Assembly (NCBI RefSeq): GCF_014695385.1
Contig: NZ_JACJOD010000034.1
Location: 62,001 to 126,000 of the forward strand
Origin: Trichocoleus sp. FACHB-46
GTDB taxonomy: Bacteria > Cyanobacteriota > Cyanobacteriia > FACHB-46
DNA length: 64,000 nt
Direction: 5' to 3'
Under the pieces are notes generated by a model that ran no database searches, was not told the DNA's origin, and was given only the letters and a program-made list of their open reading frames with translations. The position numbers and the translations under genes were made by a program. Positions 4,914 through 35,652 of the stretch are shown in pieces; the stretch's first letter is position 1, and each line of letters begins with the position of its first letter.

Positions 4914-5129
4914 AAAAAACTCCCTGGCGATTCTATAAACTTTCCTTATTTCCTCTAAGCTTATCGATTAAAAAAGGAGCTGACCTCTCCAGGAGGGGGA
5001 GATCCAGCAGTTCGGATGTCCCCTGATAGAGGTATTCCGCCCTCGAAAAGCAACGGCTTCTGCTCAGGCTTCTACAATATAAAGATAGGTAAACACTCTT
5101 GGCTGTTCGCTGCTCCGGTTCCAGAATCT

Positions 5130-8100
5130 ATGGCTTTCTCCTCAATTATTCGTGCCCTTGGGCGATCGCCCCTCACTAACGAGCTATTAGCCAAGCTGAA
5201 ACAGCAACAACTTCTAAAGCTCAACGGTGTGTCTCGCATCCCTAAGGGCTTGGTAGCATCGGCTCTAGCTCAAGCTGGCCCCCGCAACTTGTTAGTAGTG
5301 ACTGCCACCCTAGAAGAAGCAGGCCGCTGGACTGCCCAACTAGAAGCAATGGGCTGGCAAACGGTTCATTTCTATCCCACCTCCGAGGGATCTCCCTACG
5401 AACCCTTTGACTTGGAGTCAGAGATGGCTTGGGGCCAGTTGCAAGTCTTAGCGGATTTGGTAGGTAGCCAAGGAGCTACCAGCAATGGGAATGGTCAAGG
5501 TGGGGAGACGAGCCGAACCGCGATCGTCGCCACAGAGAGAGCTTTACAGCCCCACTTACCCCCTATCGATGCCTTCCGCCCCTATTGTCTGAGATTGCAA
5601 CGAGGAGCCGAAGTTGATCTCGATGCTTTTAGCAGTGAACTGACCCGTTTAGGCTACGAGCGCGTTTCCCTCGTAGAAACAGAAGGCCAATGGAGCCGCC
5701 GGGGAGACATTGTTGATGTGTTTCCCGTCGCCGCCGAACTCCCGATTCGTCTGGAATGGTTTGGTGATGAGCTGGACAAAATGCGGGAGTTTGATCCAGC
5801 AACTCAGCGATCGCTCGACTCGATCAATCATCTTGTCCTCACACCCACCAGTTTTAGCCCCATTGTCAGAGCCGCTTTTACAGGCGAGAAGGCCACAGCG
5901 CTAAAAACCTATCTCAACCCTGCCGAACAAGAGAAATTTGAGCAAGACCAACCCTTAGCAGGTCTGCGTCGATTTCTGGGATTAGCCTTTGATCAGCCAG
6001 CTTCTTTGCTCGACTACTTGCCAGAAAATACCTTGATTGCCTTAGATGAACCGGAGCAGTGTCAGGCTCACGGCGATCGCTGGTTTGAGCATGTGGAGGA
6101 GCAGTGGAGGGATGAAGGAGGTAAGGGAAAGGATGAAGGAGGAGGGATGAAGGATGAAGGGGAGAGTTCTCTTCTGCCTAAGATCCATCGCTCCTTTCAA
6201 GAGTCACTCGCCGAAGTCGAATGTTTCGATCGCCTTTATCTATCAGAACTGGTCGAAGAAGTTGTAGGTGCTGCTCCATCCCTCAATCTTGCCAGTCGCC
6301 CGGTGAATGCCACTCCGCACCAGTTTGGTAAGTTGGCGGAGACGATTCGAGGAGAGCGCGATCGCGGTTTCTCGGTGTGGTTGGTGTCGGCGCAGCCTTC
6401 GCGATCGGTGTCGCTGTTGCAGGAGCACGATTGTCCGGCGCAGTTTGTCCCAAACTCACGCGACTATCCTGCGATCGAGAAACTTCAGATTCAGCGGGTG
6501 CCTGTAGCAGTCAAGTATTCGGGCCTCGCAGAGATTGAAGGGTTTGTTTTACCGACCTTCCGCTTGGTAGTGGTCACAGACCGAGAATTTTTTGGTCAGC
6601 ACACCCTAACCACCCCCAGCTATGTCCGGAAGCGGCGACGGGCGGCCTCTAAGCAGGTTGATCCGAATAAGCTGCAACCGGGGGACTTTGTCGTTCATAA
6701 GAGTCATGGCGTGGGCAAGTTCCTCAAACTAGAGAGCTTGACGATCAACCACGAAACTCGCGAATACCTGGTGTTGCAGTATGCCGATGGTTTGTTGCGG
6801 GTGGCCGCAGACCAAGTCGGATCATTGTCCCGGTTCCGAGGGGCTGGGGATGCGGTGCCAGAGCTGAACAAGATGTCCAGCAAGGCTTGGGAGAAAACTA
6901 AGAGCAAGGTCCGCAAGTCAATCAAAAAGTTGGCGGTGGATCTGCTGCAACTGTATGCTCAGCGATCGCAACAGCAAGGCTACACCTACCCCACAGACAT
7001 GCCTTGGCAGCAGGAAATGGAGGACTCCTTCCCCTACCAACCCACCCCTGACCAACTGAAAGCGACCCAGGATGTCAAACGGGATATGGAAAATTCCCGT
7101 CCGATGGATCGCTTGGTTTGCGGAGATGTTGGCTTCGGCAAAACAGAAGTAGCAATTAGAGCCATCTTCAAGGCAGTCACGGCGGGCAAGCAAGTCGCGC
7201 TACTAGCTCCCACCACGATCCTGACGCAGCAGCACTACCACACGCTGAAGGAACGCTTTGCCCCCTACCCGATTCAAGTGGGTCTACTGAATCGCTTCCG
7301 CACCGCTGAGGAACGCCGCCAAATTCAGCAACGCTTAACCACCGGAGAGCTAGATATTGTCGTGGGCACCCATCAACTCTTGGGTAAAGGCGTTGCTTTC
7401 CGAGATTTGGGCTTGTTGGTAGTGGATGAAGAACAGCGGTTTGGGGTGAACCAAAAGGAGAAGATCAAAAGCCTTAGAACCCAAGTGGATGTGCTGACCC
7501 TCAGCGCCACCCCGATTCCCCGAACGCTCTATATGGCGCTGTCTGGAGTGCGAGAAATGAGCCTGATTACCACACCACCGCCTTCTCGTCGTCCGATCAA
7601 AACTCACTTGTCTCCTTTTGACTCCGAAACGGTGCGAGCGGCGATTCGTCAAGAACTCGATCGCGGCGGTCAAATTTTTTATGTGGTTCCCAGGGTAGAG
7701 GGGATTGAGGAAACTTCAGCTAAAATCCGCGAAATGGTGCCAGGAGCAAGGCTCGCGATCGCCCACGGCCAAATGCCAGAGGCCGAGCTGGAATCCACCA
7801 TGCTCACCTTCAGCAATGGGGACGCGGATATTCTCCTTTGCACCACGATTATTGAATCGGGTTTGGATATCCCACGGGTTAACACCATCTTGATTGAGGA
7901 TGCTCAGCGCTTTGGCTTGTCGCAGCTTTATCAGTTGCGGGGCCGCGTCGGTCGAGCGGGGATTCAAGCTCATGCTTGGTTGCTCTATCCCAAGCAAAGC
8001 CAGCTCTCGGATACTGCCCGTCAGCGATTGCGGGCGATTCAGGAGTTTACTCAGCTTGGTTCTGGCTATCAACTGGCAATGCGGGATATGGAAATTCGGG

Positions 8101-8687
8101 GTGTGGGGAATTTGCTGGGGGCAGAACAGTCGGGTCAAATGGATGCGATCGGGTTCGACCTCTATATGGAGATGCTGGAGGAATCGATTCGGGAGATTCG
8201 TGGCCAAGAGATTCCCAAGGTGGACGATACGCAAATCGATCTCAGCGTGACTGCCTTTATTCCGGCTGATTACATTCCCGATCTCGATCAGAAGATGAGT
8301 GCTTATCGCGCGATCGCTGCAGCTAGTACCAAGGCGGAGTTGACGCAAACGGCGGCGGAATGGAGCGATCGCTATGGTGCGATCCCGCCTGCGGCTCTCC
8401 AACTGATTCGGATTGTGGAGCTGAAGCAGACGGCTAAGAAGCTAGGTTTCTCTCGCATCAAGCCAGAGGGCAATCAACATGTGGTGCTAGAAACGCCGAT
8501 GGAGGAGCCTGCCTGGAATTTGCTGAAGGCGAATCTGCCTGATCACTTGCAATCTCGGTTTGTCTATACGCCGGGTAAGGTGACGGTGCGGGGTTTAGGA
8601 GTGTTGGGTGTAGAGCAGCAGTTGTCTAATTTGATTGATTGGTTGGGGCGGATGCAGGGGGCTTTACCAGAGGCTGTTTTGGTTTAG
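5130..8687 (+). CDS. mfd: Transcription-repair coupling factor Mfd
   Basis: ATP-dependent translocase that removes RNA polymerase stalled at DNA lesions and recruits UvrA. The 1185-residue product has an N-terminal UvrB-like region with the [10 protein letters not shown] motif, and the CarD-like RNA-polymerase interaction domain (from about 516; [14 protein letters not shown]). The helicase core has Walker [15 protein letters not shown] (about 664), DEEQ box VVDEEQRFG (about 764) and motif [14 protein letters not shown]-terminal TRCF domain follows. I chose ATG 5130 because the family starts at this point; the open frame extends 38 codons upstream without similarity. Residues about 326-346 are a Gly/Lys/Glu-rich insert made by a purine-rich repeat (see 6102-6165). 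Confidence 0.95.
6102..6165 (+). repeat. Purine-rich GGATGAAGG element, in frame inside mfd
   Basis: A 60-base run of almost pure A/G with three GGATGAAGG cores encodes residues such as [18 protein letters not shown] in Mfd. Similar tracts occur at 8852-8918, 13732-13790, 16737-16789 and 47011-47050. Confidence 0.75.
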
Positions 8688-8692
8688 GTTTG

Positions 8693-8772
8693 GCTAAACC
8701 AAGAGCTTGGGGGCGCTTGCCCCCAAACCCCCGCTGAAGGACGGTTGCGTCCCTCAGACTCCCTCCAAACGA
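8693..8772 (+). repeat. Dispersed GC-rich 75-bp element, copy A
   Basis: The sequence begins near AAGAGCTTGGGGGCGC and ends near CTCCCTCCAAACGAG. It contains an inner GGGGGC...GCCCCC hairpin and the core CCCCCGCTGAAGGACGGTTG. It starts just after the mfd stop codon. It is nearly identical to the reverse complement of copy B (13842-13918). Confidence 0.85.
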
Positions 8773-8848
8773 GTTCTTTTGTGGGTGCTTCGAGTTTTTG
8801 GTTTGCTAATTTTGGCTCTGAATCTCCCAACTTTTGCCCTCTAACTGC

Positions 8849-9424
8849 TCACCCCTCTCTCCTCCCGCTTTTCCCTTTTCCTCCCTCCTCCTTCATCCTT
8901 CCATCTTCCTTCTCACAGCGGGAATCGTAATACAGCTGAATGAAGTCAGAAAACTGTTTGTAGCCCATTCGGGTGAAGCTGGTGGCGATGCCGTCTCCTA
9001 GGCAGTACTCATAGTCGTAGATGGTGGTGTTGCCTGTGAATTGGGTTGATAGTTCCTGCCATGTGGGGGGTTGGTAGCCGAAAACGAATTGAAAAAATTT
9101 GGCGGCTTCTGCTTGGTCGTATGTGAAGTCGTCAGCGTTGGGGTTGGTGGCTACGTTCAGGTTGACGTATTTAGCACGGTCGTTGACGAAGGTGATTGAC
9201 CACTCGGTCTGGGGAAATTGGGGAAACAGTTGGCGCAGTTGAGTTGCAGAGTAGGTGTAGGTCACGCCGTCTGGGGTGGTGAGGCGAGTCTGATAGGGGC
9301 CAAAGGTGTGCTCGATGGTTTGAGGGGTTTGGTTGAGCACGGGTTGCCCTGCTCTAGCTGGATCTGTCAGTAGACCTGTAAGGACTAATCCAGCTAAGGC
9401 AAGACTACAAAACCGAACGTTCAT
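8849..9424 (-). CDS. Secreted protein of unknown function with repeat-derived tail
   Basis: The 191-residue product starts with a clear signal peptide (MNVRFCSLALAGLVLTGLLT, cleavage likely after PARA near residue 25). The mature part is aromatic-rich (FGPYQTRL, FFQFVFGYQPPTW, YDYEYCLGDGIATSFTRMGY) and has two cysteines, at the YEYCLG motif and near YYDSRC, that could pair. The last 20 or so residues (EKEDGRMKEEGGKGKSGRREG) come from the purine-rich repeat and look like an acquired tail. Homologues would be expected to stop near YYDSRC. It lies alone, divergent from the gene at 9756. No function is recognised. Confidence 0.75.
   Translation of the reverse strand: MNVRFCSLALAGLVLTGLLTDPARAGQPVLNQTPQTIEHTFGPYQTRLTTPDGVTYTYSATQLRQLFPQFPQTEWSITFVNDRAKYVNLNVATNPNADDFTYDQAEAAKFFQFVFGYQPPTWQELSTQFTGNTTIYDYEYCLGDGIATSFTRMGYKQFSDFIQLYYDSRCEKEDGRMKEEGGKGKSGRREG
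8852..8918 (-). repeat. Purine-rich GGATGAAGG element forming a C-terminus
   Basis: On the minus strand this is an A/G-rich tract containing GGAAGGATGAAGGAGGAGGG. It supplies the last codons and the stop of the secreted protein at 8849-9424. Confidence 0.7.
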
Positions 9425-9755
9425 AATTTAAAGTCAAATTGCTGTTCATAAACTTCAACTGAACATCTAGTTTTTCAGGGCAGTAAAACGAAAGTTTTTC
9501 CTATTAAAAAATATACATCTGAATTGAAGAGGTTGCTGAGTATAGAAATCTGGTAGTTTTTGCTACAAATTTGTAGATTTCATCAGAGATTTATCAAAAA
9601 TCACCCGTTTATATTTGCCACTTTACGGAACAATTCGCTAGCATTTGTATCGTTATGTATGGGAATGTTAAGAGCGTCTGTTACCCGCGATCGCGCAAAG
9701 CATTGCTGAGAGCATCGCCGCCATTCCTAACTCTCTCTTACTTGGAACGCATGTT
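9425..9755. other. Divergent AT-rich intergenic region (331 bp)
   Basis: This is the shared upstream region of the secreted-protein gene (minus) and the nitrogenase-C-like gene (plus). It is clearly AT-rich from 9430 to 9640. It must hold both promoters, but I cannot place boxes with confidence. A 66-base open frame from 9655 overlaps the real gene out of frame and is not credible. Confidence 0.5.
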
Positions 9756-10097
9756 ATGGCGTCAACAAATCAAGTTAGTTTCGACCTGTTCCATGCAGCA
9801 GTGGCTCCCACCAAAAGCCCATCTACGTTTAAGGCTCAGTTTGATGCTCTCAAGCCTTTACGGCAGTGGCTGGATGGCATCGAAATCAAGACTCCTGAGT
9901 TAGCTCATTTTCTCGCTAAGACAATTCCTGCTCAATGCCCTTTTGAAAGAGACATTACTCTCTTTGGCCGCAAGGTGGCTCACATTCCGCCACTGTGCAA
10001 ACTCAATCCTCTATACGAGGAATTGGTGGGCCTCCGATTTCGTGCCCTCTGCTACTTAGTAGACGAGTGTGGTCAGGACATTCAAGCCTATTCTTAG
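9756..10097 (+). CDS. Mo-dependent nitrogenase C-terminal-domain family protein
   Basis: The 113-residue protein matches the small cyanobacterial family (Mo-nitro_C) that resembles the C-terminus of a nitrogenase subunit. Diagnostic stretches are LRQWLDGIEIKTPELAHFL, IPAQCPFERDITLFG, IPPLCKLNPLYEEL and LRFRALCYLVDECG. Four cysteines are spaced as in the family. The name does not show that the protein takes part in nitrogen fixation; members also occur in strains without nitrogenase. The function is unknown. ATG 9756 begins directly before the conserved region, and a terminator hairpin follows the stop. Confidence 0.85.
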   Translation: MASTNQVSFDLFHAAVAPTKSPSTFKAQFDALKPLRQWLDGIEIKTPELAHFLAKTIPAQCPFERDITLFGRKVAHIPPLCKLNPLYEELVGLRFRALCYLVDECGQDIQAYS

Positions 10098-10098
10098 A

Positions 10099-10120
10099 CC
10101 CTATTGCTAAATAGGGTTTT
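10099..10120 (+). terminator. Rho-independent terminator
   Basis: CCCTATT and AATAGGG form a 7-bp stem with loop GCTA, followed by TTTT. It begins two bases after the stop of the gene at 9756-10097. Confidence 0.7.
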
Positions 10121-10142
10121 GATTAGCTTTGCTCTAGGAGTT

Positions 10143-11315
10143 TTAATTAGTTTTCAACGCATCTGCTTGATTCTGCGCTGTGATCACAGCTTGCGGCGGC
10201 ACCTGGGTTCCGTCCCGTAGCGTCACTCCCACTACAATGGCTCCCGTGCCGATCGTGACGTTGTTACCGACTTGAGAGCGAAACAAGATTGCGTCGTCGG
10301 CGATCGCCAGGTTATCGCCAACTTCTAGAGGGCCGTGGAAGACAACGTTGTCGTCTGTATTTAAGTTTCTGCCAATTCGGATACTGGTGCTTTTGAGGGC
10401 ATGAAAGGTAACTCGGTCCTCGATCGCGGCATTCTCGCCAATGATGATTGGTGAACCTTCGTCGGCTCGAATCGAGGTACGCTGGCCCACCACACTATTA
10501 CGACCCAAACGCACGTCACCTACTATCCGCACAAATTGGTCGATTTGGACGTTCTGGCCTAATGTGGGTCGTACGGGTTGCTGATTCCAGGAGGTTTTTG
10601 GCGCGGCGCTAATGCCCGTGACGGCATCGAATCCTTGCGCTCGATAGAGTTCGCCGTAGTGCTCCGCAAACTCCTCGTTTACTTCTAAAACTTCTTTTTG
10701 AAACTCTGCGTTGTCTGCTGTTTTTAGCGGTAAAGCATCTGCTTGAGCTTGCGTGGTAACGACTGCACCAATGGGTACCAGGCGGTTTTTGCCAATTCGC
10801 ACGTTGGCAAGCTTGGCCCCATGCAGCACAAAGGCTCCATCTTCTAGAACGGTGTTTTTCAACTGAGCATGGAAACCGACGAAGGTGAAGTTACCAATTT
10901 TGGAATTCTCAATACTGGCTTGGTGAGCAATGCTGACTTGGTTTCCAGCGCTACTCGATCTACGGCCACAGGCACTAGTGGGAGCAGGAATGCGGCGACG
11001 GGCGATGAAGAGGATATTGTCTTGGAGATTCGTTTCATTGCCAATGCAGATGTGCGTATCAGGATCGGCCCTTAAAACGGTGTTGCCAGCCACAAACACC
11101 CGCTTGCCCACAGCAACATTGCCAAATAGCTCCACTAAGGGGCTGATAAAGCTGGAATTGACCACCACTGGGGTGGGACGAAACAAGCTGGTTAAGGAAC
11201 TTGGCGTTGCAGCCAAGGTAACAGCCGCAACCAACACAATGCCCAAAATAAAGCCAACGCTTAGAAAACTCTGTGGTAGCTTTTTTAAGCGTTGATTGAT
11301 AGAAACAAATTTCAC
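10143..11315 (-). CDS. Membrane-anchored double left-handed beta-helix protein (gamma-carbonic-anhydrase-like)
   Basis: The 390-residue protein starts with GTG at 11315. Residues about 15-36 form one hydrophobic signal-anchor (SVGFILGIVLVAAVTLAAT). Two hexapeptide-repeat domains follow. The first (about 55-195) has NLQDNILF, QVSIAHQASI and TFVGFHAQL. The second (about 245-385) has RIVGDVRLGRNSVVGQ, RVTFHAL and NVVFHGPL. Both resemble gamma-carbonic anhydrase and the CcmM N-terminus, and several histidines lie where zinc ligands would be, but the classical spacing is not fully kept. It has no RuBisCO-small-subunit-like repeats, so it is not CcmM. It would face the periplasm or lumen. Activity is uncertain. 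Confidence 0.7.
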   Translation of the reverse strand: MKFVSINQRLKKLPQSFLSVGFILGIVLVAAVTLAATPSSLTSLFRPTPVVVNSSFISPLVELFGNVAVGKRVFVAGNTVLRADPDTHICIGNETNLQDNILFIARRRIPAPTSACGRRSSSAGNQVSIAHQASIENSKIGNFTFVGFHAQLKNTVLEDGAFVLHGAKLANVRIGKNRLVPIGAVVTTQAQADALPLKTADNAEFQKEVLEVNEEFAEHYGELYRAQGFDAVTGISAAPKTSWNQQPVRPTLGQNVQIDQFVRIVGDVRLGRNSVVGQRTSIRADEGSPIIIGENAAIEDRVTFHALKSTSIRIGRNLNTDDNVVFHGPLEVGDNLAIADDAILFRSQVGNNVTIGTGAIVVGVTLRDGTQVPPQAVITAQNQADALKTN

Positions 11316-11387
11316 AGCGCAACCAATAAACGAGATACTAGCTATTTCTAGCTGACAGCTTAACTCTCAGGTTGGTTTCCTGCTGAT

Positions 11388-12458
11388 TTAGTTTGCCGCA
11401 GCTAGTAATTGCGACTCAATCTTGGCAGCATCGATCGCACGACCAATAAATACCAGGCGCGTCTCTGGAGTCTCATCGGCTTGCCAGGGGCGATCGTAAA
11501 AGCGCTCAAAGCGTTTACCCACACCTTGCAGCACCAACCGCATTGGCTTGTTGGGTACTGCCACAAATCCCTTAATTCGATAAATTTCTTGCTCTTGCAC
11601 CAGAGCTTCTAGTTGGCGTTGTAGTTGGTCTGGGTCAAAGCTTTGGTGTAGAACAACGTGAGTTGAGCTGATATCGTCATCATGGTCATGCTCTTCCTCG
11701 GTGTCGTGGTGACTGGGGCGCTCCTCCAGGTTGTCTTCCACCGCTGCTTGGAAGCCTAGTAACACATCTGGACTGAGTTGCCCGCGATCGCTCGCCACAA
11801 TCTTCACCGCTCTGGGCAATTCTTGCTGAATCAGTTCTAGGGCTTGAGTTTGGGCCTCAGCATCGACTAAATCCGTTTTGTTCAGCACCACCAGATCAGC
11901 ACAGGCGAGTTGATCTTCAAACAACTCTTGCAACGGTGTTTCATGATCCAGATTGGGGTCAGCTTGCCGCTGTGCTTCTAGGGCTTGCAAGTCACTCGCC
12001 AGCGTTCCCTGAGTCACTGCTTCACAATCCACCACCGTCACCACACCATCCACCGTCGCAGCATTGCGGATTTCGGGCCAGCGAAACGCTTGAATCAGTG
12101 GCTTAGGCAGCGCTAAACCAGAGGTTTCAATCAAAATACAATCCAGCTCATCTCGCCGTTTGATTAGCTCCAGCATCGTCGGCAAAAACTCTTCCTGCAC
12201 CGTGCAGCAGAGACAGCCATTCGTCAGCTCCACAATATTAAGGGCGTTGACCGCACTCACTGGCTGTTCCTCACCCGACTCATCTGGACACACTTGGCAA
12301 GAGCGTAGCAAATCGCCATCAATGCCCAACTCGCCAAACTCATTTACCAACACCGCAATTCGCCGACCTTGGTTGTTTTGCAACACATGGCGAATCAGGG
12401 TCGTTTTACCACTGCCAAGGAAGCCAGTAATGACAGTAACAGGAATTTTTGCAGCCAT
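11388..12458 (-). CDS. CobW/COG0523-family metal-chaperone GTPase
   Basis: The 356-residue P-loop GTPase begins at ATG 12458; an upstream TTG would add four residues. It has Walker A GFLGSGKTTL (residues 10-19), switch motif VNEFGELGIDG, the metal-binding GCLCCTVQEE (about 85), base-recognition NKTDLV, and a C-terminal CobW_C domain (from about 260) preceded by the His/Asp-rich EEEHDHDDD. Family members deliver zinc, cobalt or other metals to client proteins, coupled to GTP hydrolysis. The cofactor here is not evident; no cobalamin gene is adjacent. It is transcribed alone on the minus strand. Confidence 0.85.
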   Translation of the reverse strand: MAAKIPVTVITGFLGSGKTTLIRHVLQNNQGRRIAVLVNEFGELGIDGDLLRSCQVCPDESGEEQPVSAVNALNIVELTNGCLCCTVQEEFLPTMLELIKRRDELDCILIETSGLALPKPLIQAFRWPEIRNAATVDGVVTVVDCEAVTQGTLASDLQALEAQRQADPNLDHETPLQELFEDQLACADLVVLNKTDLVDAEAQTQALELIQQELPRAVKIVASDRGQLSPDVLLGFQAAVEDNLEERPSHHDTEEEHDHDDDISSTHVVLHQSFDPDQLQRQLEALVQEQEIYRIKGFVAVPNKPMRLVLQGVGKRFERFYDRPWQADETPETRLVFIGRAIDAAKIESQLLAAAN

Positions 12459-12715
12459 GCCTAAACTCAAAAAGGGCTTGAAAACGGTTCAAAGAGACTC
12501 GAAAAAGGGAGGCTCGAAAAGGGCGATCGCTTACCAAATACCGCTTGCTCAGGTTATCACTGCAAGCAGGATGCCTTCAAGCTAATAATCCTGCAAGCTC
12601 AGTGACTGCTTTACAACCACCAAGCCTCCAGGATTACAAGTTTGCTCACCAGGGAGACTAAATTTTAGATAGAGGATCGTTCCTCAAACTTAGCTAACTT
12701 TCTAGCTTAGCCAGC

Positions 12716-13459
12716 TTATTCAGCAGTCGCCATTTCGGTGCTGCCACGACCGCGACGACGAGTCAGCGTGTTAAACAGCATCACACCGATCGCCTTGATC
12801 AGATTACCTTCTAGCTCATTGAACAACTTCATGTTCATGCCGAAAGCTGCATTGGCTTCCTCAACAATCCGATCCGCAGTCGCCTCATCCACAGGCAACT
12901 CATTCATCGCTTGACGGTAGGTGTTTTTGAACGCCTTCTCGTCCGCAATATCTTCGAATTCGTAGAATGCCGTACCATTGCTCTCAAGATTCATGGCACG
13001 CTGAGCAATGCCCTTGAGGATCTGACCACCCGAGAGATCACCGAGGTAACGGGTGTAAGAATGGGCTGCTAGCAACTCAGGCTCAGTAGCCGCAATCTCG
13101 TGAATTCGTTGCACATAAGCTTGAGCCGCAGCCGAAGGAGCCACTTCCTCACGCCAGTTAGGACCGTAGTAGTAGTAAAGATCCTTCTCTAGACTGACCT
13201 TGCGATTCAGTTGAGGAAAGTAAAATTTCGAAACAATAGGGTGGTGCTGGAGCCGATCCATCTCTTCTTCGATCGCAGAATAAACGAAGTAGAGGTTAGC
13301 GACTAGCTTCCGGTAAGAGTTTTTCTCAACCACTCCCTTCAAAAAGCACTTCACAAAGCCGACATTCTCGGCCATAGTATGGGCTTTTTTAGTACCCTCA
13401 CGGAGTTTTGTTGCTAAATTACCGTTGCCCTCTAAATTGGTAGCGACAGTACTGGTCAT
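12716..13459 (-). CDS. ho1: Heme oxygenase (biliverdin-producing, ferredoxin-dependent type)
   Basis: It opens heme to biliverdin IX-alpha, CO and iron, the first step to phycocyanobilin for phycobilisomes and phytochromes. The 247-residue product has the proximal heme-ligand region LREGTKKAHTMAENV (His near residue 26), the conserved FVKCFLKG and YFVYSAIEEEM, and the distal glycine-rich helix YLGDLSGGQILKG (about 140). Length and sequence match cyanobacterial HO1. ATG 13459 is the only sensible start. A perfect palindrome lies about 210 bases upstream (13670-13693). It is soluble and cytoplasmic. Confidence 0.95.
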   Translation of the reverse strand: MTSTVATNLEGNGNLATKLREGTKKAHTMAENVGFVKCFLKGVVEKNSYRKLVANLYFVYSAIEEEMDRLQHHPIVSKFYFPQLNRKVSLEKDLYYYYGPNWREEVAPSAAAQAYVQRIHEIAATEPELLAAHSYTRYLGDLSGGQILKGIAQRAMNLESNGTAFYEFEDIADEKAFKNTYRQAMNELPVDEATADRIVEEANAAFGMNMKLFNELEGNLIKAIGVMLFNTLTRRRGRGSTEMATAE

Positions 13460-13669
13460 ACTAAATGTCCTGCTAAACTTCCCAACACTAAAGTTGCTTG
13501 CTGGAATGGCAATCCTTACGAAAAACTAAAAAGCCACCTAAATCGTTACAGTAAAACGATTTGATGAGAATTTGTGTTAAATATTCTGAAGCTCTATTGA
13601 GCCAGAAGCACCAAAAGCCACAGCAAGCCAACATTCACCCGAATTCAACCCATTACATCACAGGTTTTA

Positions 13670-13693
13670 CTTACATTTATTAATAAATGTAAG
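13670..13693. promoter_or_regulatory. Perfect 24-bp palindrome upstream of ho1
   Basis: The arms CTTACATTTAT and ATAAATGTAAG are exact inverted copies around a central TA. It could be an operator for a dimeric regulator of ho1 or a fold in a long leader. It lies about 210 bases upstream of the ho1 start, far for a simple repressor site. The role is inference. Confidence 0.4.
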
Positions 13694-13731
13694 CAGCCTG
13701 AACCATTGCTACATATCCTTTCAGGCAGAAC

Positions 13732-13790
13732 GGCAGGGAAGTAGAAGGGATGAAATAGGAAAAATGAAGGATGAAAAGGGAAGAGATAGA
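13732..13790 (+). repeat. Purine-rich GGATGAAGG element (intergenic)
   Basis: An A/G-rich tract contains GAAGGGATGAAATAGG and AATGAAGGATGAAAAGGG. It is the same family as the tracts in mfd and at 8852-8918. Confidence 0.65.
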
Positions 13791-13841
13791 AGCCAAAAAT
13801 TAGCAGCCAGAATCCAAAGACCCGAAACACTTATATTCAAG

Positions 13842-13918
13842 TTCGTTTGGAAGGGGTCCGGGAGACGCAACCGTCCCTCAGCGGGGGTCTGGGGGCAGGT
13901 GCCCCCAAGCTCTTGGTT
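13842..13918 (-). repeat. Dispersed GC-rich 75-bp element, copy B
   Basis: The reverse complement reads AAGAGCTTGGGGGCACC, then CCCCCGCTGAGGGACGGTTG, then CCCCTTCCAAACGAAC. It matches copy A over its whole length with few changes. It lies just past the treY stop codon. Confidence 0.85.
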
Positions 13919-13923
13919 CTGTT

Positions 13924-16713
13924 CTAACCAAACAACAAAGCCACAGGAAAATGCTGTAAAGCCTCCCCAACCAGTATCCTTCCCTCAGCTTGCAGGGATT
14001 GTGCCGTAATTGCATTGTGCCAAGAAGTAGGAGCCCCTTGAGGCAGCTCAATGGCCGTGTCCTCCCATACTTGTTGAGTCAGAGGATACTCCCCAGGTTG
14101 AATCACATTCGTGAGGAACCGAGGCGCGATCGCGATCGCTGTTTCATTTCCCTGCCTTCTCGCAAAAGCAATGATATGGTCTTGCAACTTACCAGTCACT
14201 TGGAGTGGCAAATAATCACCATCCTGGAACAGCTCGCTATGTTTAGCTCTAGCTTGCAGCCCTTGGAAAGTCAAAAACAGCTTAATTCTGCCATCTTCCT
14301 TCGTCTCTAATAGTTCAGTAATCAGCTCTGGAATATTGTTCGCGATCTTCTGTTTCAGATCATCTAAACAAGCCTGACGCTGCTCAAAATCTACAGGCCG
14401 ACGGTTATCAGGGTCCACCAAACTCAATTCCCAAAACTCAGTGCCTTGGTATATGTCAGGGATACCAGGAGAAGTCAGCTTCAGTAGCGTTTGTGATAGA
14501 GAGTTAAACATGCCATAGTAGGCCACTCGCTCTTGGAAAGGACGCAACTCCTTCAGGAACGGGTTATCTCCACCGGGTTGCAAGACTGATTCCACAAACT
14601 GAGCAAAGGCGTTTTCGTAGGCTGCATCCGGTCTGAGCCAAGCCGTATGTACCTTCGCCTCCCGTACGCCCTTAATCACATAATCCTTAACTCGCCCGAC
14701 GAACTGCTCAAATTCACCATCCTGGAAAGGAAACGCCCCAACCACGGTTTGGTAAAAGAAGTATTCATCATTCTCATCAGGCATGATTTCGCGCTGCCGA
14801 CGCACCTTCTGAGAGCGATTAATTTGGCTCCAAGTGCTGACTTGTTTCTCCCACTCATCTGGGATTTCGGAGAGGACATTGAGCCGAGCCCGGACATCTT
14901 CCCCACGCTTGGTGTCATGAGTCGCAGTGGCGCTCATAGCGTAAGGCCAATCGGTCTGCCGTTTGTGATTGAACTCATGGAAAGCATCAAGAGATAACCC
15001 AAAGTGGCTAGGGTCACCGCCGACTTCATTGAGGGATAGCAGGCGGTTGTAAACATAGAGGGTAGTGTCCTCGACCCCCTTAGCCATCAGAGGCCCGGTG
15101 TACTGCTGCAATCGCATGACGAAGTAGAGCCAGTAGTCTCTCTCGGCTTGAGTGAGAGAGTCTTCATATTCTAGGAGCAACAGTTTTTCGATGAAGTTCA
15201 GCTCATTTTGGAGCAGAGGCACCCGTTCCTTGGCGCTATCAATTACCTCTGTGATGTAGGCGCGATCGCGCTCAGGTAAGCCTTCCTGCGTGATGTAGGT
15301 GCGGTAAATCGGGAAGATGGTCAACACTTCCGCCAACGCCCGCTTCAAACCATTGATCGTAAAATCGTTGCCGTAGCGATACTTACTAGATATGTTTTTG
15401 AGCAAATAAGTTAGGTTCTCAATATCCCCAGCTAAATTCTTCTCCAGAATTAGCCGTTTATTTTGATTTACCAACTCACCATAGCTCGCTCTAGTACGAG
15501 TTAGTTTCGTATAGATCTCATCAAATCGCTGCTCATTATCAACCCGACAGAAAATGCCATTAACATAGTTCAAGTAGTCATAACCAGAAGTACCCTCAAT
15601 CGGCCAATTGCTGGGTAAATCTTCTCCTGCTTCCAGGATTTTTTCCACAGTGATATAAGTATCACCTGTTTTTTCGCGCAGACGCTCTAAATACTGGATT
15701 GGGTTATAGAGACCATCAATATGGTCAATTCTTAATCCAGTAAATTTACCCGATTCTACTAACTTGAAAATAAGGTTATGAGTATTGTTAAAAACCTTCA
15801 GTTCTTCGACTTTAACGGAAATTAATTCATTGACGGTAAAGAAGCGACGGTAATTAATTTCTTCCGCCCCTACTTTCCAGAAAGAAAGCCGAAAGAACTG
15901 GTCAGACAGCAAACTATCTAGTAGGTTAAAGCTCTCTGAATTGCCTGCTTCTCCATTAAAGGTCTGAATATTTTGTTCAATAAAAGCTTTGACTTCTTCA
16001 TTACTGGTGTATAACTCCCAAAGTAATCCTTTGACAAAAGCAATTTGGTCTTGTCGCTGCTTTCCAGTCACTTCTGAAGGAACGCTCTTGACCAAGTAAA
16101 GAATGCCAAGCAATTTAACGAAATCAGGATTATGCCTACCTAAAGTTCTAGCTAATTGTCCTAAATTTTGAGTCAGGAATTGTGCATAAGACTCTAATTT
16201 AAGCGGTAGCTTCAGGCTGTAATAATTAACACTCAGTCCTGTTTCATCGTAGTCAAGTTGAATCTGCCCGTTCTCTAAGCAACGTCCATAAAAATCACCT
16301 AACAAAGGTGCAAGAATCCGATCCTCACTATTGGCAAAGGGAGCATTCCAAGCGATATCAAAATACTCGACATAGTCAGAACTAGGACCATTTTCCAGCA
16401 CGTCCGTCAGGTACTGGTTTTCGCTGTCATAGGCCATGTGGTTGGGCACAATGTCTTGCAACCAACCCATCTGATGAGATTGCAATTCCTGCACCAGAGA
16501 TTCAAAAGCATCAGGGGTTCCTAGCTCTGGATTCAGTTGGCTGGGATCAACCACATCATAGCCGTGAGTACTACCAGCCCTCGCCTTGAAAATAGGAGAA
16601 GCATACAGGTCAGAAATACCCAAGTGAGCGAGGTAGGAAGCAATCTTTTGAGCATCCTCAAAACCGAAGGCGGAGTTGAACTGGATGCGATATGTAGCGC
16701 GAGGAATCCTCAT
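13924..16713 (-). CDS. treY: Malto-oligosyltrehalose synthase TreY
   Basis: It isomerises the reducing-end alpha-1,4 linkage of maltodextrins to an alpha-1,1 linkage, giving maltooligosyl-trehalose for TreZ. The 929-residue GH13 protein has the family N-terminus RATYRIQFNSAFGFEDA, the region STHGYDVVDPSQLNPELG, the nucleophile motif GLRIDHIDGLYNP, the acid/base region ITVEKILEAGEDLP and SATATHDTKRGEDVRARL with the transition-state residues. The large insertion between barrel elements is typical of TreY. It is cytoplasmic. treZ lies 105 bases upstream on the same strand, so the two are probably one operon. The 5' half is AT-richer and lacks HIP1 sites for 1.5 kb. Confidence 0.95.
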   Translation of the reverse strand: MRIPRATYRIQFNSAFGFEDAQKIASYLAHLGISDLYASPIFKARAGSTHGYDVVDPSQLNPELGTPDAFESLVQELQSHQMGWLQDIVPNHMAYDSENQYLTDVLENGPSSDYVEYFDIAWNAPFANSEDRILAPLLGDFYGRCLENGQIQLDYDETGLSVNYYSLKLPLKLESYAQFLTQNLGQLARTLGRHNPDFVKLLGILYLVKSVPSEVTGKQRQDQIAFVKGLLWELYTSNEEVKAFIEQNIQTFNGEAGNSESFNLLDSLLSDQFFRLSFWKVGAEEINYRRFFTVNELISVKVEELKVFNNTHNLIFKLVESGKFTGLRIDHIDGLYNPIQYLERLREKTGDTYITVEKILEAGEDLPSNWPIEGTSGYDYLNYVNGIFCRVDNEQRFDEIYTKLTRTRASYGELVNQNKRLILEKNLAGDIENLTYLLKNISSKYRYGNDFTINGLKRALAEVLTIFPIYRTYITQEGLPERDRAYITEVIDSAKERVPLLQNELNFIEKLLLLEYEDSLTQAERDYWLYFVMRLQQYTGPLMAKGVEDTTLYVYNRLLSLNEVGGDPSHFGLSLDAFHEFNHKRQTDWPYAMSATATHDTKRGEDVRARLNVLSEIPDEWEKQVSTWSQINRSQKVRRQREIMPDENDEYFFYQTVVGAFPFQDGEFEQFVGRVKDYVIKGVREAKVHTAWLRPDAAYENAFAQFVESVLQPGGDNPFLKELRPFQERVAYYGMFNSLSQTLLKLTSPGIPDIYQGTEFWELSLVDPDNRRPVDFEQRQACLDDLKQKIANNIPELITELLETKEDGRIKLFLTFQGLQARAKHSELFQDGDYLPLQVTGKLQDHIIAFARRQGNETAIAIAPRFLTNVIQPGEYPLTQQVWEDTAIELPQGAPTSWHNAITAQSLQAEGRILVGEALQHFPVALLFG

Positions 16714-16736
16714 AGGAAAGTTTTGGCTCCTGAGTC

Positions 16737-16789
16737 AGGGGGAATGAGGGAGAAGTGGGAGAGAAGTGAAGGAGGAGGGATGAAGGATA
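16737..16789 (+). repeat. Purine-rich GGATGAAGG element between treZ and treY
   Basis: An A/G tract with GAAGGAGGAGGGATGAAGG fills most of the gap between treZ and treY. It closely matches the tract inside mfd. Confidence 0.7.
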
Positions 16790-16818
16790 ACAATGCAAAA
16801 GCAGGAGAGGCAGTTACA

Positions 16819-18636
16819 TCAAGCGATCGCTTGGTAAACCACACAATTCCACGGTTGCAATGTCACGGATTGCTGAGATGCTAAAGCATCGGAGGCAGAG
16901 GCAGCAGAGCCTTGCCATTTTGAATCGGCTGAGTCGAGGATTTTGTGCCACTCAGCAGTTGGGATCTCTGGTTGGCAAGTAATAGGCTGGTCGCTGAAAT
17001 TCATTAAAGTTGCAATTTGCTCAGTTTCGCTCCAGCGCCGTAGCACGACCAAGGTTTCAGTACTGGTAGCACTGAGGCGATCGCGGCTGAGCTGAGTCAG
17101 GGCAGGAATGGTTTTCCGCAGTTGGATCAAATGTTTGTACCAATCCAACATGGTTTTGTTTTTGCCTTCGTGGCGCTTTTCCCAGTTCAGCTTGCACTTG
17201 TTAAAAGTTTCCGGAGCTTCTGGGTCGTCGGGTTCGCCTTCGCAGTGGAAAGCGGCAAATTCCTGCTTACGGCCTTCCCGTACCGCTTTGATCAAATCAG
17301 GATCGGAGTGGCTGACGAAGTAAACAAAAGGCGCTGGTTCGTCATATTCCTCGCCCATAAACAGCAACGGAATGTAAGGAGATAGTAGAACCGCAGCTGC
17401 CGTCAGTTTAGCCGCTTCGTAGGGGATCATATGGGAGAGCCGCTCACCCAACATGCGGTTGCCAATCTGGTCGTGGTTTTGGCTGCAAATCACGAACTGG
17501 GAGCAGGGGCGATCGGTGACGACATTGCCATGAAAGCGGTGGCGATGGGGTGAGTACTTCCAGTCGTAGACAAAGGTATCACTATAAGCTTTGGCCAGTT
17601 GCTCACATTCACCATAGTCTTGGTAATAGCCTTGGCGATCGTTGCTCACTAGGGCATGGAGAGCATGGTGAAAGTCATCACTCCACTGAGCATCCAGACC
17701 ATATCCTCCCTGCTCCACCGAACGAATCACCCGGGGATCGTTAAGGTCACTTTCGGCAATCAGATATAGCTCGCGACCCACTTGCTCGGATAGAGTTGCC
17801 ACATTCTCGCCTAGTTCTTGGAGAAAATGCTTGGCACCAAGATCGTAGATGGCATGGACAGCATCCAGGCGCAGGGCATCAATGTGATAGTCTCGCAGCC
17901 AATATAGGGTGTTTTCAATGAAATAATTGCGAACTCCAGGGCTATAAGCGTCATCGAAATTAATAGCGCTACCCCAGGGGGTCCGGTAGGTATTTGTAAA
18001 GTAAGGACCAAAGTGGCTGAGATAGTTACCTTCTGGGCCAAAGTGGTTGTAAACCACGTCCAGCACGACAGCTATTCCTTGCTGATGGCAGGCATCGACT
18101 AGTTTTTTTAAGCCTTCTGGTCCACCGTAAGAGTCTTGGACGGCAAAAGGATAAACTCCGTCGTACCCCCAGTTGCGATCGCCTGGGAACTGTGCCACTG
18201 GCATGATTTCGATCGCGTTGATCCCCAGATCTTTCAAATCGGGCAATCGGGAGATGGCAGCTTCAAACGTACCTTCCTGGGTAAAGGTGCCGACATGCAA
18301 TTCGTAGAGGATCATTGCCTCTAGAGGAACACCGCTCCAGTTGCGATCGCTCCAATTAAACTGGGGATCAACAACTTGCGAAGGACCATGTACACCTTGC
18401 GGTTGTAAATTTGAAGCAGGATCAGGGCGAGTTTCGCCGTCATTTAATTGGTACTGATAAAGAGTGCCTGGTTGCACGTCAGAGACTGCTACACGCCAAT
18501 ACCCACTCTCCTGTTGCTCCATCGCAATTTGCTGTTGTTTAGGAGCCAGTAGTTGCAAGGAGACGGTAGCGGCAGTAGGTGCCCACAAGATAAATTCACA
18601 TTGACCATTTCCTAAATATTGCGCCCCAAGTCTCAC
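16819..18636 (-). CDS. treZ: Malto-oligosyltrehalose trehalohydrolase TreZ
   Basis: It hydrolyses maltooligosyl-trehalose to free trehalose. The 605-residue GH13 protein has an N-terminal CBM48/isoamylase-type beta domain (1-100; YLGNGQCEFILWAPTA), then the barrel with VVLDVVYNHFGPEGNYL, nucleophile DALRLDAVHAI, acid/base YLIAESDLNDPR and SQNHDQIGNRM. The start is GTG 18636, supported by the strong Shine-Dalgarno AGGGAGGA about 8 bases upstream. With treY it makes the glycogen/maltodextrin route to trehalose, a solute tied to desiccation and salt tolerance in cyanobacteria. No treS or glgX lies next to it in this window. Confidence 0.95.
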   Translation of the reverse strand: MRLGAQYLGNGQCEFILWAPTAATVSLQLLAPKQQQIAMEQQESGYWRVAVSDVQPGTLYQYQLNDGETRPDPASNLQPQGVHGPSQVVDPQFNWSDRNWSGVPLEAMILYELHVGTFTQEGTFEAAISRLPDLKDLGINAIEIMPVAQFPGDRNWGYDGVYPFAVQDSYGGPEGLKKLVDACHQQGIAVVLDVVYNHFGPEGNYLSHFGPYFTNTYRTPWGSAINFDDAYSPGVRNYFIENTLYWLRDYHIDALRLDAVHAIYDLGAKHFLQELGENVATLSEQVGRELYLIAESDLNDPRVIRSVEQGGYGLDAQWSDDFHHALHALVSNDRQGYYQDYGECEQLAKAYSDTFVYDWKYSPHRHRFHGNVVTDRPCSQFVICSQNHDQIGNRMLGERLSHMIPYEAAKLTAAAVLLSPYIPLLFMGEEYDEPAPFVYFVSHSDPDLIKAVREGRKQEFAAFHCEGEPDDPEAPETFNKCKLNWEKRHEGKNKTMLDWYKHLIQLRKTIPALTQLSRDRLSATSTETLVVLRRWSETEQIATLMNFSDQPITCQPEIPTAEWHKILDSADSKWQGSAASASDALASQQSVTLQPWNCVVYQAIA

Positions 18637-18955
18637 CCTAAATGTCCTCCCTGAAAACGTAAAAAACTAGCGCACTGCTGATTAGAGCTGTGCGATCGCA
18701 GATGAATAAAAACATTAATAAAGCCGGTTCAACTAGGAATTGTGCTGGGAGGGAAACTATTGAGGCTAGTGCCGAAAGAGAGATCTTCTAGTTGTGATGC
18801 TTGCCACTTTGGAGACGAGAACCAAAAGCTTGGATGCACCTGCCCCAAACCCCAGCTAAAGCATGGTTGCATCCCCCAGACCCCTGCAAAAGCTTTTTAG
18901 GAGACAATTGAAGCCAGCGATCGCACCATATTTGCTCATATCCGCTCATATTCGC
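18637..18955. other. Divergent intergenic region treZ / aminotransferase (319 bp)
   Basis: It holds the treZ Shine-Dalgarno and upstream region, one HIP1 site and GC-rich element copy C (18820-18894). An open frame in phase with the aminotransferase continues up into copy C, which makes the start look longer than it is. Confidence 0.6.
18820..18894 (+). repeat. Dispersed GC-rich 75-bp element, copy C (diverged)
   Basis: It reads AAAAGCTTGGATGCACCTG, then CCCCAGCTAAAGCATGGTTG, then CAGACCCCTGCAAAAGC. It aligns to copy A end to end but is less GC-rich and has lost the perfect inner hairpin. Confidence 0.7.
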
Positions 18956-20122
18956 ATGGAAAATTTGATCTCTCGTATGCAGGCAGTCCAGTCTCCCATC
19001 ATTCCAATTGTGGGGGAACTGATTCGTCAATATCCTGGCACGATTTCCTTAGGGCAAGGAGTGGTTTACTATGGGCCTCCGCCGGAAGCGATCGCGCAGA
19101 TACCTCAGTTTCTATCTGACCCGACGAATCATTTATATAAAGCAAACGAGGGAATTCCACCCTTATTAGAGGCGATCGCGGCTAAGCTTCGCACCTTTAA
19201 TCGCATTGAGATCAACGAGCAAAACGCTGTGGTAGTGACAGCGGGCAGCAATATGGCCTTTATGCACGCCCTTCTCGCCATTACTTCCGTAGGCGATGAA
19301 GTTATTTTGCAAACGCCCTACTACTTCAACCACGACATGGCGATTACGATCGCTGGGTGCCGCCCTGTCTTTGTACCCACCGATGAGAATTACCAATTGC
19401 GTCCAGAAGCGATCGCTCAAGCGATTACAGAACGCACTCGTGCAGTCGTCACCATTTCTCCTAACAATCCCACGGGTGTCGTGTACCCCAAAGCGGCTTT
19501 ACAAGCAGTGAATCAGCTCTGTCGCGATCGCGGTATTTATCACATCAGCGACGAAGCTTACGAATACTTCACCTACAACGGTGTGCCGCACATCTCTCCA
19601 GGTTCCTTTGCAGGCAGCGATCCCCACACTATTTCTCTCTTCAGCCTTTCTAAGGCTTATGGCTTTGCCAGTTGGCGCATCGGCTACATGGTGATTCCAG
19701 CATCACTTTCCGTAGCTGTAAAAAAGGTGCAGGACACCATTCTGATTTGTCCCCCCGTCATCTCCCAGTACGCTGCTGTCGGAGCCTTACAGACAGGAAT
19801 TGCTTACTGCCAAGAGCATTTGCACGCGATCGCCGAAGTCCGCCGCTTAGTTCTCAGCGAACTCCAGCGTTTAGATAACCTGTGCACAGTTGCACCGACA
19901 GAAGGAGCTTTCTACTGCTTCCTCAAAGTTCATACAGACCTACCAGCATTGCAATTAATCGAACGCCTCATTCGCGAACATCGAGTCGCCGTCCTACCAG
20001 GAGACACCTTCGGCATGACAGAGGGATGTTACCTCCGCATAGGTTATGGAGCCTTGCAAAAAGAGACAGCCACCGCAGGGATCGAGCGGCTAGTAAAGGG
20101 TCTACAAAGCATTTTGTCCTAA
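18956..20122 (+). CDS. PLP-dependent class I/II aminotransferase
   Basis: A fold-type I aminotransferase of 388 residues. It has the PLP-contact motif SPNNPTGVVYP, the DEAYEYFTY segment (Asp and Tyr to the pyridine ring and O3'), the Schiff-base lysine in SLFSLSKAYGFASWRIGY, and the C-terminal Arg in YLRIGYGAL that binds the substrate carboxylate. I chose ATG 18956 (MENLISRMQAVQ); the frame continues 31 codons upstream but those codons fall in a dispersed repeat and look spurious. The AspC-like family covers aspartate, aromatic and kynurenine enzymes, and sequence alone does not pick the substrate. It stands alone on the plus strand. Confidence 0.88.
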   Translation: MENLISRMQAVQSPIIPIVGELIRQYPGTISLGQGVVYYGPPPEAIAQIPQFLSDPTNHLYKANEGIPPLLEAIAAKLRTFNRIEINEQNAVVVTAGSNMAFMHALLAITSVGDEVILQTPYYFNHDMAITIAGCRPVFVPTDENYQLRPEAIAQAITERTRAVVTISPNNPTGVVYPKAALQAVNQLCRDRGIYHISDEAYEYFTYNGVPHISPGSFAGSDPHTISLFSLSKAYGFASWRIGYMVIPASLSVAVKKVQDTILICPPVISQYAAVGALQTGIAYCQEHLHAIAEVRRLVLSELQRLDNLCTVAPTEGAFYCFLKVHTDLPALQLIERLIREHRVAVLPGDTFGMTEGCYLRIGYGALQKETATAGIERLVKGLQSILS

Positions 20123-20189
20123 GCTGCCTCTATAGCTACCTCTATAAATGTCTCAACACCTAAACCAAAACTGAGCAACCCAAGGTTAC

Positions 20190-20261
20190 CGCTGGAGGAG
20201 GTCTGGAGGACGCAAATCCTTCAGCGAGGGTTTGGGGGCGAGTGCCCCCAAGAGTCTTCCA
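20190..20261 (-). repeat. Dispersed GC-rich 75-bp element, copy D
   Basis: The reverse complement reads CTCTTGGGGGCACTCGCCCCC, then CTCGCTGAAGGATTTGCGTCC, then CCTCCTCCAGCGG. It follows the aminotransferase stop and matches copies A and B with moderate changes. Confidence 0.8.
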
Positions 20262-20287
20262 CAAAACAGTTAAACCAAACTAGAAAA

Positions 20288-35044: not shown

Positions 35045-35652
35045 CGCAAAAAGCTACTAATCAGCCAGAGCAGCAACAAAGTAACCCAAGATGCAAAAGC
35101 ATTGCTATCAATGCTGAGGGCAGCCAGTGGCGTTGCCAAGAAAGGAAATAGCTGTAGACCTATAACAATCCCTAAAGTAGAACCAACCAACGTCAGCAAG
35201 AAGACCCGAAAAAACTTGTGCTCCTTGCGGTTCAGAAAGTACAAACTTACCCCAACACCTAGAGCTAAAGCCAAACCAGGAGCGTACAAACTCAACGCAC
35301 CCAAACCCGCAAACAAAGTGGCAGGCCAGAGCACATCCGAGCGGCTAGGAGTATCTAAAACTAGAAGATTCTGTAACCAAGCTGGCGCTTTGGAAGCAGG
35401 CGCAGGCGCTACCGCAGGAGGAGCAGGCGTAATCTTCTCAGGAAACCGAATCCGATCGGGCACCTTGATCCGACCCTCTTGGCGCATCCGTAGGCGATCC
35501 ATCAAAATCGCATCATAGGATGCCTCAATCATTTCTACTCGCTTGCGATCGCTAGCATGCTCTTCTACTAGGCGATTGCGAGCATCTTGGATTTCATCAA
35601 ACGAAGCGCTCTCATTCAACCCAAGCGTTTCGTAGGGATTGTGATCACTCAT
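35041..35652 (-). CDS. CPP1-like J-domain-related membrane protein (DUF3353)
   Basis: The 203-residue protein has an N-terminal J-like region (residues 6-70; NPYETLGLNESASFDEIQDA) lacking the HPD tripeptide, so it should not stimulate Hsp70 in the usual way. A linker rich in Pro/Ala follows, then three or four membrane helices (about 103-200; LWPATLFAGLGALSLY, VFLLTLVGSTLGIVIG, ASWVTLLLLWLISSFL). This matches plant and cyanobacterial CPP1/CDF1-like proteins, in which the plant member stabilises protochlorophyllide oxidoreductase. The cyanobacterial role is inferred. It is probably a thylakoid or inner-membrane protein. Confidence 0.85.
   Translation of the reverse strand: MSDHNPYETLGLNESASFDEIQDARNRLVEEHASDRKRVEMIEASYDAILMDRLRMRQEGRIKVPDRIRFPEKITPAPPAVAPAPASKAPAWLQNLLVLDTPSRSDVLWPATLFAGLGALSLYAPGLALALGVGVSLYFLNRKEHKFFRVFLLTLVGSTLGIVIGLQLFPFLATPLAALSIDSNAFASWVTLLLLWLISSFLR

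Follow-up and report, generated by a model that had tools for sequence, protein, structure and literature searches.

Linked three-strand mutations suggest that copies of a dispersed cyanobacterial repeat are kept able to form two small triple helices

Introduction

Intrastrand triplex repeats, described as PIT, BoxC or TM_ECO repeats, are short GC-rich sequences of bacterial intergenic DNA (Hoyne et al., 2000; Holder et al., 2015, PMC4666352). According to Holder et al. (2015), they are always intergenic, show no strand bias in Escherichia coli and lie in unstable surroundings, and many G/C-rich triplex motifs occur in Anabaena, Nostoc and Microcystis. That work rests on motif matching and in-vitro folding. 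Its ITxF search rule needs stems of at least 6 and up to 15 triplets, allows one mismatch from 7 triplets upwards, and accepts loops of 1–6 nt (PMC4666352). The triplex fold in other bacterial repeats is known only from sequence and test-tube work. Here we describe a small GC-rich element that occurs four times in a stretch of 64,000 nucleotides of Trichocoleus sp. FACHB-46 (contig NZ_JACJOD010000034.1, positions 62,001 to 126,000), referred to below as the window. The conserved part of the element is termed the head, and intrastrand triplex repeats appear to be its nearest known kind, a likeness that does not imply common descent.

Other small repeats also invite comparison. GTAG/CGTC REPs with their RAYT transposases and the REPINs (PMC3733652, PMC3116915) are, like the present element, dispersed intergenic palindromic repeats, and inverted pairs of heads occur in two genomes (G076 and G134). 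The element differs from REPs in having two different hairpins with C-tracts; no GTAG stands beside either consensus hairpin and CGTC lies within the paired stem, so that a GTAG/CGTC REP was rejected. The small dispersed repeats of Nostoc that Elhai et al. reportedly described in 2008, said to be 21–27 nt long, are likewise very small, mobile-looking repeats of cyanobacterial intergenic DNA. Finally, Sklenar and Feigon are said to have reported in 1990 a model folded triplex DNA oligonucleotide of the order R-loop-Y-loop-Y (R, purine; Y, pyrimidine). Each module of the head shares this strand order and topology on the C-rich strand; the oligonucleotides were designed, whereas the element is a natural repeat family.

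Base-triple covariation in the head

The head consists of two modules. Each contains a purine arm, a loop, a pyrimidine arm, a 3-nt linker and a third tract, also of pyrimidines, which is the mirror image of the pyrimidine arm. A total of 136 heads from the genus were aligned to a 67-nt core, and mutual information was calculated for all 2,211 column pairs. The analysis was repeated with one head drawn from each of 67 locus groups, a grouping that is imperfect because 23 heads fell into one group, probably owing to likeness of their downstream sequences. The covariation had first been spotted by eye in an alignment and was then tested, under a plan not fixed beforehand, on a larger set containing those copies.

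The three strands of each module covary as base triples, and the second loop covaries with the 3' end. In the 67-group analysis, the top eight pairs are the loop-tail pair 40-63, the mirror pairs 49-55, 18-24 and 48-56, the purine-third pairs 5-24 and 33-56, and the Watson-Crick pairs 33-48 and 5-18. Seven of these rank first to seventh among the 136 heads, with 33-56 ninth, behind the loop pair 10-13. Mirror positions are symmetric about each 3-nt linker. The chance of at least five mirror or purine-third pairs among the eight is 2e-9, although the columns are not independent.

The states of 53 copies from one genome illustrate the pattern. Positions 5/18/24 read GCC in 41 copies, ATT in 6, GTC in 3 and ACC in 2, and positions 33/48/56 read GCC (42), ATT (7), ACC (3) and GCT (1). 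Positions 32/49/55 are ACC in 46 copies and ATT in 7, so that 49/55 is always CC or TT and never mixed, and 40/63 is TA in 31 copies and CG in 22, again with no mixed state. The triple 36/45/59 is A-T.T in all 53. By Fisher's test, p is 2e-15 for 40-63 and ranges from 4e-6 to 6e-9 among the mirror pairs, with the copies treated as independent, which they are not. None of 500 column shuffles reached the observed covariation score, either for the hairpins with the loop-tail pairs or for the purine-third pairs. Slid registers also lose score, and shuffling and sliding agree on the score and on cells changed on both sides. The offset between third tract and purine arm is constant (55-32 = 56-33 = 23), which indicates that the third tract runs parallel to the purine arm, in Hoogsteen orientation; an antiparallel alternative pairing would not yield a constant offset and was rejected.

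Copies in the window, the genome and the class

The family covariance model gave four strong matches in the window, of 101.6 to 65.9 bits (Table 1). Its seed of 32 heads included all four window copies, two as genome loci and two as window stretches, and the E-values in the window are therefore inflated. Independently of the model, a BLAST search with copy A alone retrieved 40 scored copies from the genome, down to E 5e-19. The places, strands and motifs that an earlier note on the window had given for the four copies are confirmed, with the exception that copy C lacks GAGCTTGGGGGC. Copy C also lacks an intact first hairpin and is a decayed copy.

Copies A, B and D start within 100 bases of a stop codon, as the earlier note had it. 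Copy A begins 6 bp past the stop of the gene at 5016-8687 and copy B 6 bp past the stop, at 13924, of the gene that occupies 13924-16713 on the minus strand, both in sense orientation; copy D lies about 70 bp past the stop at 20122 in antisense orientation. The wording that all four copies stand beside gene ends holds for these three and fails for copy C, between two gene starts. The inner hairpin of the note exists, and the description was incomplete, the third C-tracts and the triple covariation having been missed. Confinement to a 12-kb part is true within the window only, since the family is genome-wide: the covariance model finds at least 87 copies in the 6.56-Mb genome (92 contigs), and at least 78 and 80 copies in two sister species of the same genus. 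These counts are lower bounds, because 150 candidates per genome were scored. The view of a dispersed, gene-end-associated repeat is thus borne out, and local duplication, which the note would have accepted had no further copies existed, is ruled out. At 35622-35685 of the window, plus strand, the family model has one more, weak match of 14.9 bits (E 0.0013), which may be another decayed copy.

Related elements (E <= 1e-6) were found in 47 of 194 sampled genomes of the class, many of which carry ten or more. Twelve of the 47, from families other than that of the window's genome, have 4 to 36 matches each at E <= 1e-9. The layout outside the genus is alike: CTTGGGGG...CCCCC AAA CCCCC ... GGGGGACG...CGTCCCCC AGA CCCCC TCC. 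Full A-T.T triples occur there, as GAGGG/CCCTC/CTCCC, in module 1 of G172 (L339) and in the second module of several G162 copies with a 2-nt linker (L157, L309-L311), the register of the latter being read by eye. The architecture is kept outside the genus, and covariation there is thin. Phage records contained no heads and Nostoc plasmids gave only two weak partial matches, so that carriage by phages or plasmids was rejected.

In other genera (for example L146, L147 and L149), a second conserved block with GCGCTTCGCAT lies 20-40 bases 3' of the head in several genomes; GTGTTTCGA may be its counterpart in the window's genus.

A proposed tandem triplex

A mirror third tract parallel to the purine arm gives the strand order of a foldback triplex of the pyrimidine motif, and the complementary strand would correspond to a purine-motif triplex with an antiparallel third strand. 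Replacement of G-C.C by A-T.T (or of C-G.G by T-A.A) preserves these motifs. On the evidence of the aligned copies, the linked three-strand mutations suggest that evolution preserves the capacity of the copies to form two small triple helices. We lean towards the reading that the element is a dispersed intergenic repeat, a single strand of which folds into two consecutive short triplexes, with the fold under selection. The wider proposition, of a class-wide repeat conserved as a tandem triple-helix pseudoknot whose fold is selected in cells, is put forward more tentatively.

A single strand could arise during lagging-strand replication, in a transcription bubble or as a transposition intermediate, and might then fold back into the two consecutive triple helices. 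In module 2 the third tract continues as CTCC, with T59 facing A36-T45, before the chain meets the hairpin loop. There C61-A63 can pair with T40-G42, a pairing that includes the strongest covarying pair of the per-locus analysis and that would close the second triplex as a triplex pseudoknot. The triple couplings and the loop-tail coupling can thus be accommodated in one model; the three-dimensional position of the loop-tail pairing is our inference. Acid is required for the C+.G-C and T.A-T triplets that the C-rich strand would form; those of the G-rich strand would be G.G-C and A.A-T, which work at neutral pH with Mg2+. We prefer the G-rich DNA strand as the folding strand because of these neutral-pH triplets and because the A.C mismatch at 32-49 becomes a T.G wobble on it. 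This choice is held lightly, as the mismatch argument comes mainly from one conserved position (112 of 136 A.C cells). Selection on the fold, acting through a putative DNA-binding or strand-processing protein, may keep the copies structured, a weaker part of the proposal.

Both consensus modules, and those of other genera, have on one strand three blocks in succession that agree with a single triplex class. The resemblance to PIT/TM repeats includes short GC-rich intergenic sequence, purine, pyrimidine and third-strand blocks on a single strand with a 3-nt second loop, a purine motif on the G-rich and a pyrimidine motif on the C-rich strand, the lack of strand bias, and unstable gene order. 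In contrast to TM_ECO, which has one 9-nt module of the order Y-R-R, the head has two modules of 5 and about 8 triplets, ordered R-R-Y on the G-rich strand, and a covarying loop-tail pairing; the distinction follows the published description. The TM_ECO pattern CCCTCNCCC N3-6 GGGNGAGGG N3 GGGNGAGGG was rejected for the head on sequence and block order. Set against the ITxF rule, module 1 with its 5 triplets falls short, and module 2, about 8 triplets with one inversion, conforms only where a copy has T49/T55 or a GGGGG arm. The evidence also differs in kind, being triplet covariation here and motif matching with in-vitro folding in Holder et al. (2015). No description of the double module, of the loop-tail pairing or of the covariation was found in the literature examined, outside which lie most subscription papers and the Holder motif lists.

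As reported for the E. coli triplex repeats, gene order appears to break more often near heads. At 29 loci it was broken at 19 of 57 head junctions and at none of 24 nearest other junctions. The part of the window without strong heads, at 21.5-61.3 kb, is collinear with the sister species G001.

Several points weigh against the triplex fold. Heads are located at the ends of operons, which may bias the gene-order control, and the link may not be causal. Nearly all genus copies have A at position 32, and 49/55 is C,C in 46 of 53, which makes an A.C mismatch the common state. The stems are short, with 5 triplets in module 1 and about 8, one inverted, in module 2, and neutral pH disfavours C+.G-C triplets that follow one another. 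Only two lineages outside the genus have A-T.T, and two others, G088 (L297) and G134 (L153), have A-T.C; A-C.C is commoner there, and few heads have a purine-arm A with a matched T. Gene conversion may contribute, leaving the count of independent joint events uncertain. No partner protein for the fold was found, and footprinting of the related E. coli motif did not reveal a triplex in vivo (PMC4666352).

If the proposal is right, the covarying base triples are evolutionary evidence for a foldback triplex selected in cells and imply a cellular factor that reads or needs the fold. Compensatory base-triple changes, dozens of copies per genome and class-wide relatives allow an evolutionary test of its use, and the defined copies with three sister species offer a system in which to seek such a protein.

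Alternative explanations

The couplings might involve no triplex and reflect the linkage of sites in a small number of founder haplotypes that gene conversion has homogenised. Orthologous heads have a mean identity of 91.9% and paralogues of 89.9%, so near to each other that the copies must be held to a common form by constraint, conversion or both. Local recombination is active: single copies carry inverted hairpin loops, for example with GGACGCAACCGTCC for GGACGGTTGCGTCC, which are the footprint of recombination within a palindrome and occur among others in L001 and L007 in G001, and in L022 of G002 (L095 1394-1449) an exact deletion between ACCCCC repeats has removed the second hairpin and left CCCCCAAACCCCCTCC. 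The coupled sites are also only 6-23 nt apart. Founder linkage, however, does not predict that the strongest couplings fall at mirror, Watson-Crick and purine-third positions, and intermediates with one change are less frequent than double or triple changes. A single conversion tract shared by these sites is made less likely by 49/55, which sits between 40 and 63 and whose TT/CC state is combined with TA as well as with CG. We regard linkage without a triplex as unlikely.

A second alternative is that the element acts in RNA, as a structured element of the 3' untranslated region that blocks exonucleases or aids the end of transcription in bacteria without Rho. Placement was examined for 51 copies of the window's genome, with open reading frames (ORFs) called mechanically and small head-covering ORFs set aside as spurious. 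None lies inside a gene, and in 35 the left (upstream) neighbour is on the same strand, most of these copies starting less than 30 bp from its stop. By gap type, 16 copies are convergent, 31 co-directional and 4 divergent; divergent gaps make up 10 of 30 gaps in the window (p = 0.006), and their under-use indicates that promoter regions are avoided. This distribution suits an RNA role, as does a 2026 study that attributes a minority of transcript ends in cyanobacteria to canonical terminators (PMC13289151). Yet most of the same-strand excess would be expected from convergent and co-directional gaps once promoters are avoided. The 31 co-directional copies divide into 19 sense and 12 antisense (p = 0.28), so head orientation is not clearly constrained and an RNA element of strong orientation was rejected. 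An intrinsic terminator was rejected as well, and with it the suggestion in the earlier note of a terminator-like repeat: no such pattern matched at copy A or B, and in place of a hairpin followed at once by a U-tract, TTTT stands just downstream in only 16 of 53 copies. RNA folding of the four window copies is moderately better than that of shuffles (z -1.3 to -2.4), which indicates that plain secondary structure is not the outstanding feature. A known structured RNA was rejected too, as no Rfam family reached its curated gathering score over the heads. The E. coli triplex repeat is cited as lacking promoter or terminator activity (in PMC4666352). Action in RNA is, in our judgement, improbable.

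The element might instead be a non-autonomous mobile element of REPIN or miniature inverted-repeat transposable element (MITE) type, whose fold matters only for copying, whose resident copies are functionless and whose covariation reflects descent from a few structured sources. Copies are dispersed with unrelated flanks, and some, such as copy C, have decayed. Inverted head pairs lie 260-310 bp apart in G076. In the distant genome G134, heads lie inside a unit of about 370 bp with 42-bp inverted ends (L153 716-1089, L154 770-1165), and the model places a second, inverted head at 984-1068 of L154. This unit is a candidate MITE and partly supports the MITE-like label of the earlier note; within the genus, no terminal inverted repeats were seen around single heads and most tested copies occupy orthologous sites. 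In 38 locus-by-species comparisons with both flanks found, the head was mostly kept at the orthologous site, the exceptions being L005, L006 and L020, which lack it in G001; the spread must be mostly old. Only L020 versus G001 forms a tidy presence/absence pair, and it shows no clear target-site duplication. A RAYT partner, including a GTAG REP flanking a Y1 gene, was rejected, since none of 30 Y1/RAYT loci in eight genomes, reaching about 1.5 kb to either side, had a head nearby. Moreover, joint structural switches recur at resident copies, with ACC/ATT exchanges within 6 locus groups. A purely mobile element therefore seems a doubtful account of the family.

Least probable is a G-quadruplex of the G-rich strand with the mirror coupling as tetrad layers. 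The minus strand does have four G5 tracts, arranged as two pairs whose loops are TTT and TCT, and mirror positions would share one layer of an antiparallel pair. However, adenine is not normally a guanine substitute in tetrads, coupling runs within each module (18-24; 48-56, 49-55) and not across the four tracts, and a quadruplex does not predict that the Watson-Crick partner (5, 33) changes as well.

Coordinates and other features of the window

Table 1. Matches to the family model, parts of the four window copies, and copies with inverted hairpin loops. Positions are those of the window, except for loci L040 to L119. The E-values are inflated, all four copies having been in the model seed.
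Feature	Position	Strand	Remark
Copy A, model match	8690-8776	+	E 1.4e-39
Copy A, head	8693..8772	+	Complete; orthologous site occupied in both sister species
Copy A, first module	8709-8713; 8720-8724; 8725-8727; 8728-8732		Purine arm; pyrimidine arm; linker AAA; third tract
Copy A, second module	8734-8743 with 8748-8757; 8759-8763		Stem; third tract
Copy A, loop-tail	8745-8747 with 8766-8768		Loop able to pair with the tail
Copy A, downstream extension	8773..8902	+	GTG(T/C)TTCGA block, then pyrimidine-rich stretch with (TTCATCC)-like heptamers
Copy B, model match	13839-13925	-	E 2.4e-36
Copy B, head	13842..13918	-	Complete; gene-order break against both sister species (G001 and G002)
Copy B, downstream extension	13744..13841	-	GTTTCG block and purine/pyrimidine-rich repeat; family D3, inverted pair I1
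Copy C, model match	18813-18898	+	E 9.1e-25
Copy C, head	18820..18894	+	Degenerate; between two divergent gene starts; first hairpin broken
Copy D, model match	20184-20268	-	E 7.3e-27
Copy D, head	20190..20261	-	2-nt deletion in second loop; gene-order break against both sister species (G001 and G002)
Inverted-loop copy, L040	5159-5245		
Inverted-loop copy, L104	1330-1416		
Inverted-loop copy, L119	1334-1420		
Inverted-loop copy, L079	1683-1769		

Matches to the copy A region extend as far as position 8902 of the window. A GTTTCGA block was found in 19 of 53 copies and the pyrimidine stretch in 15. Heptamer repeats of the GGATGAAGGAGGAGGGATGAAGGATGAA type occur at 6106-6158, 8878-8913, 13744-13775 and 16760-16791 of the window, once in frame inside an mfd-like gene, and sequence of this type also forms the pyrimidine-rich tail 3' of several heads.

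Two further features were noted in the window. A group I catalytic intron was identified on the minus strand at 50139-50396, with 68.9 bits, well over the Rfam threshold; ARAGORN found no tRNA in the window, which bears on the host gene of this intron. The ORF at 3783-4913 (minus strand) contains, at 4059-4538, eight overlapping 144-nt matches spaced 48 bp apart and 61-78% alike to the first, which together constitute a tandem array of 48-bp units.

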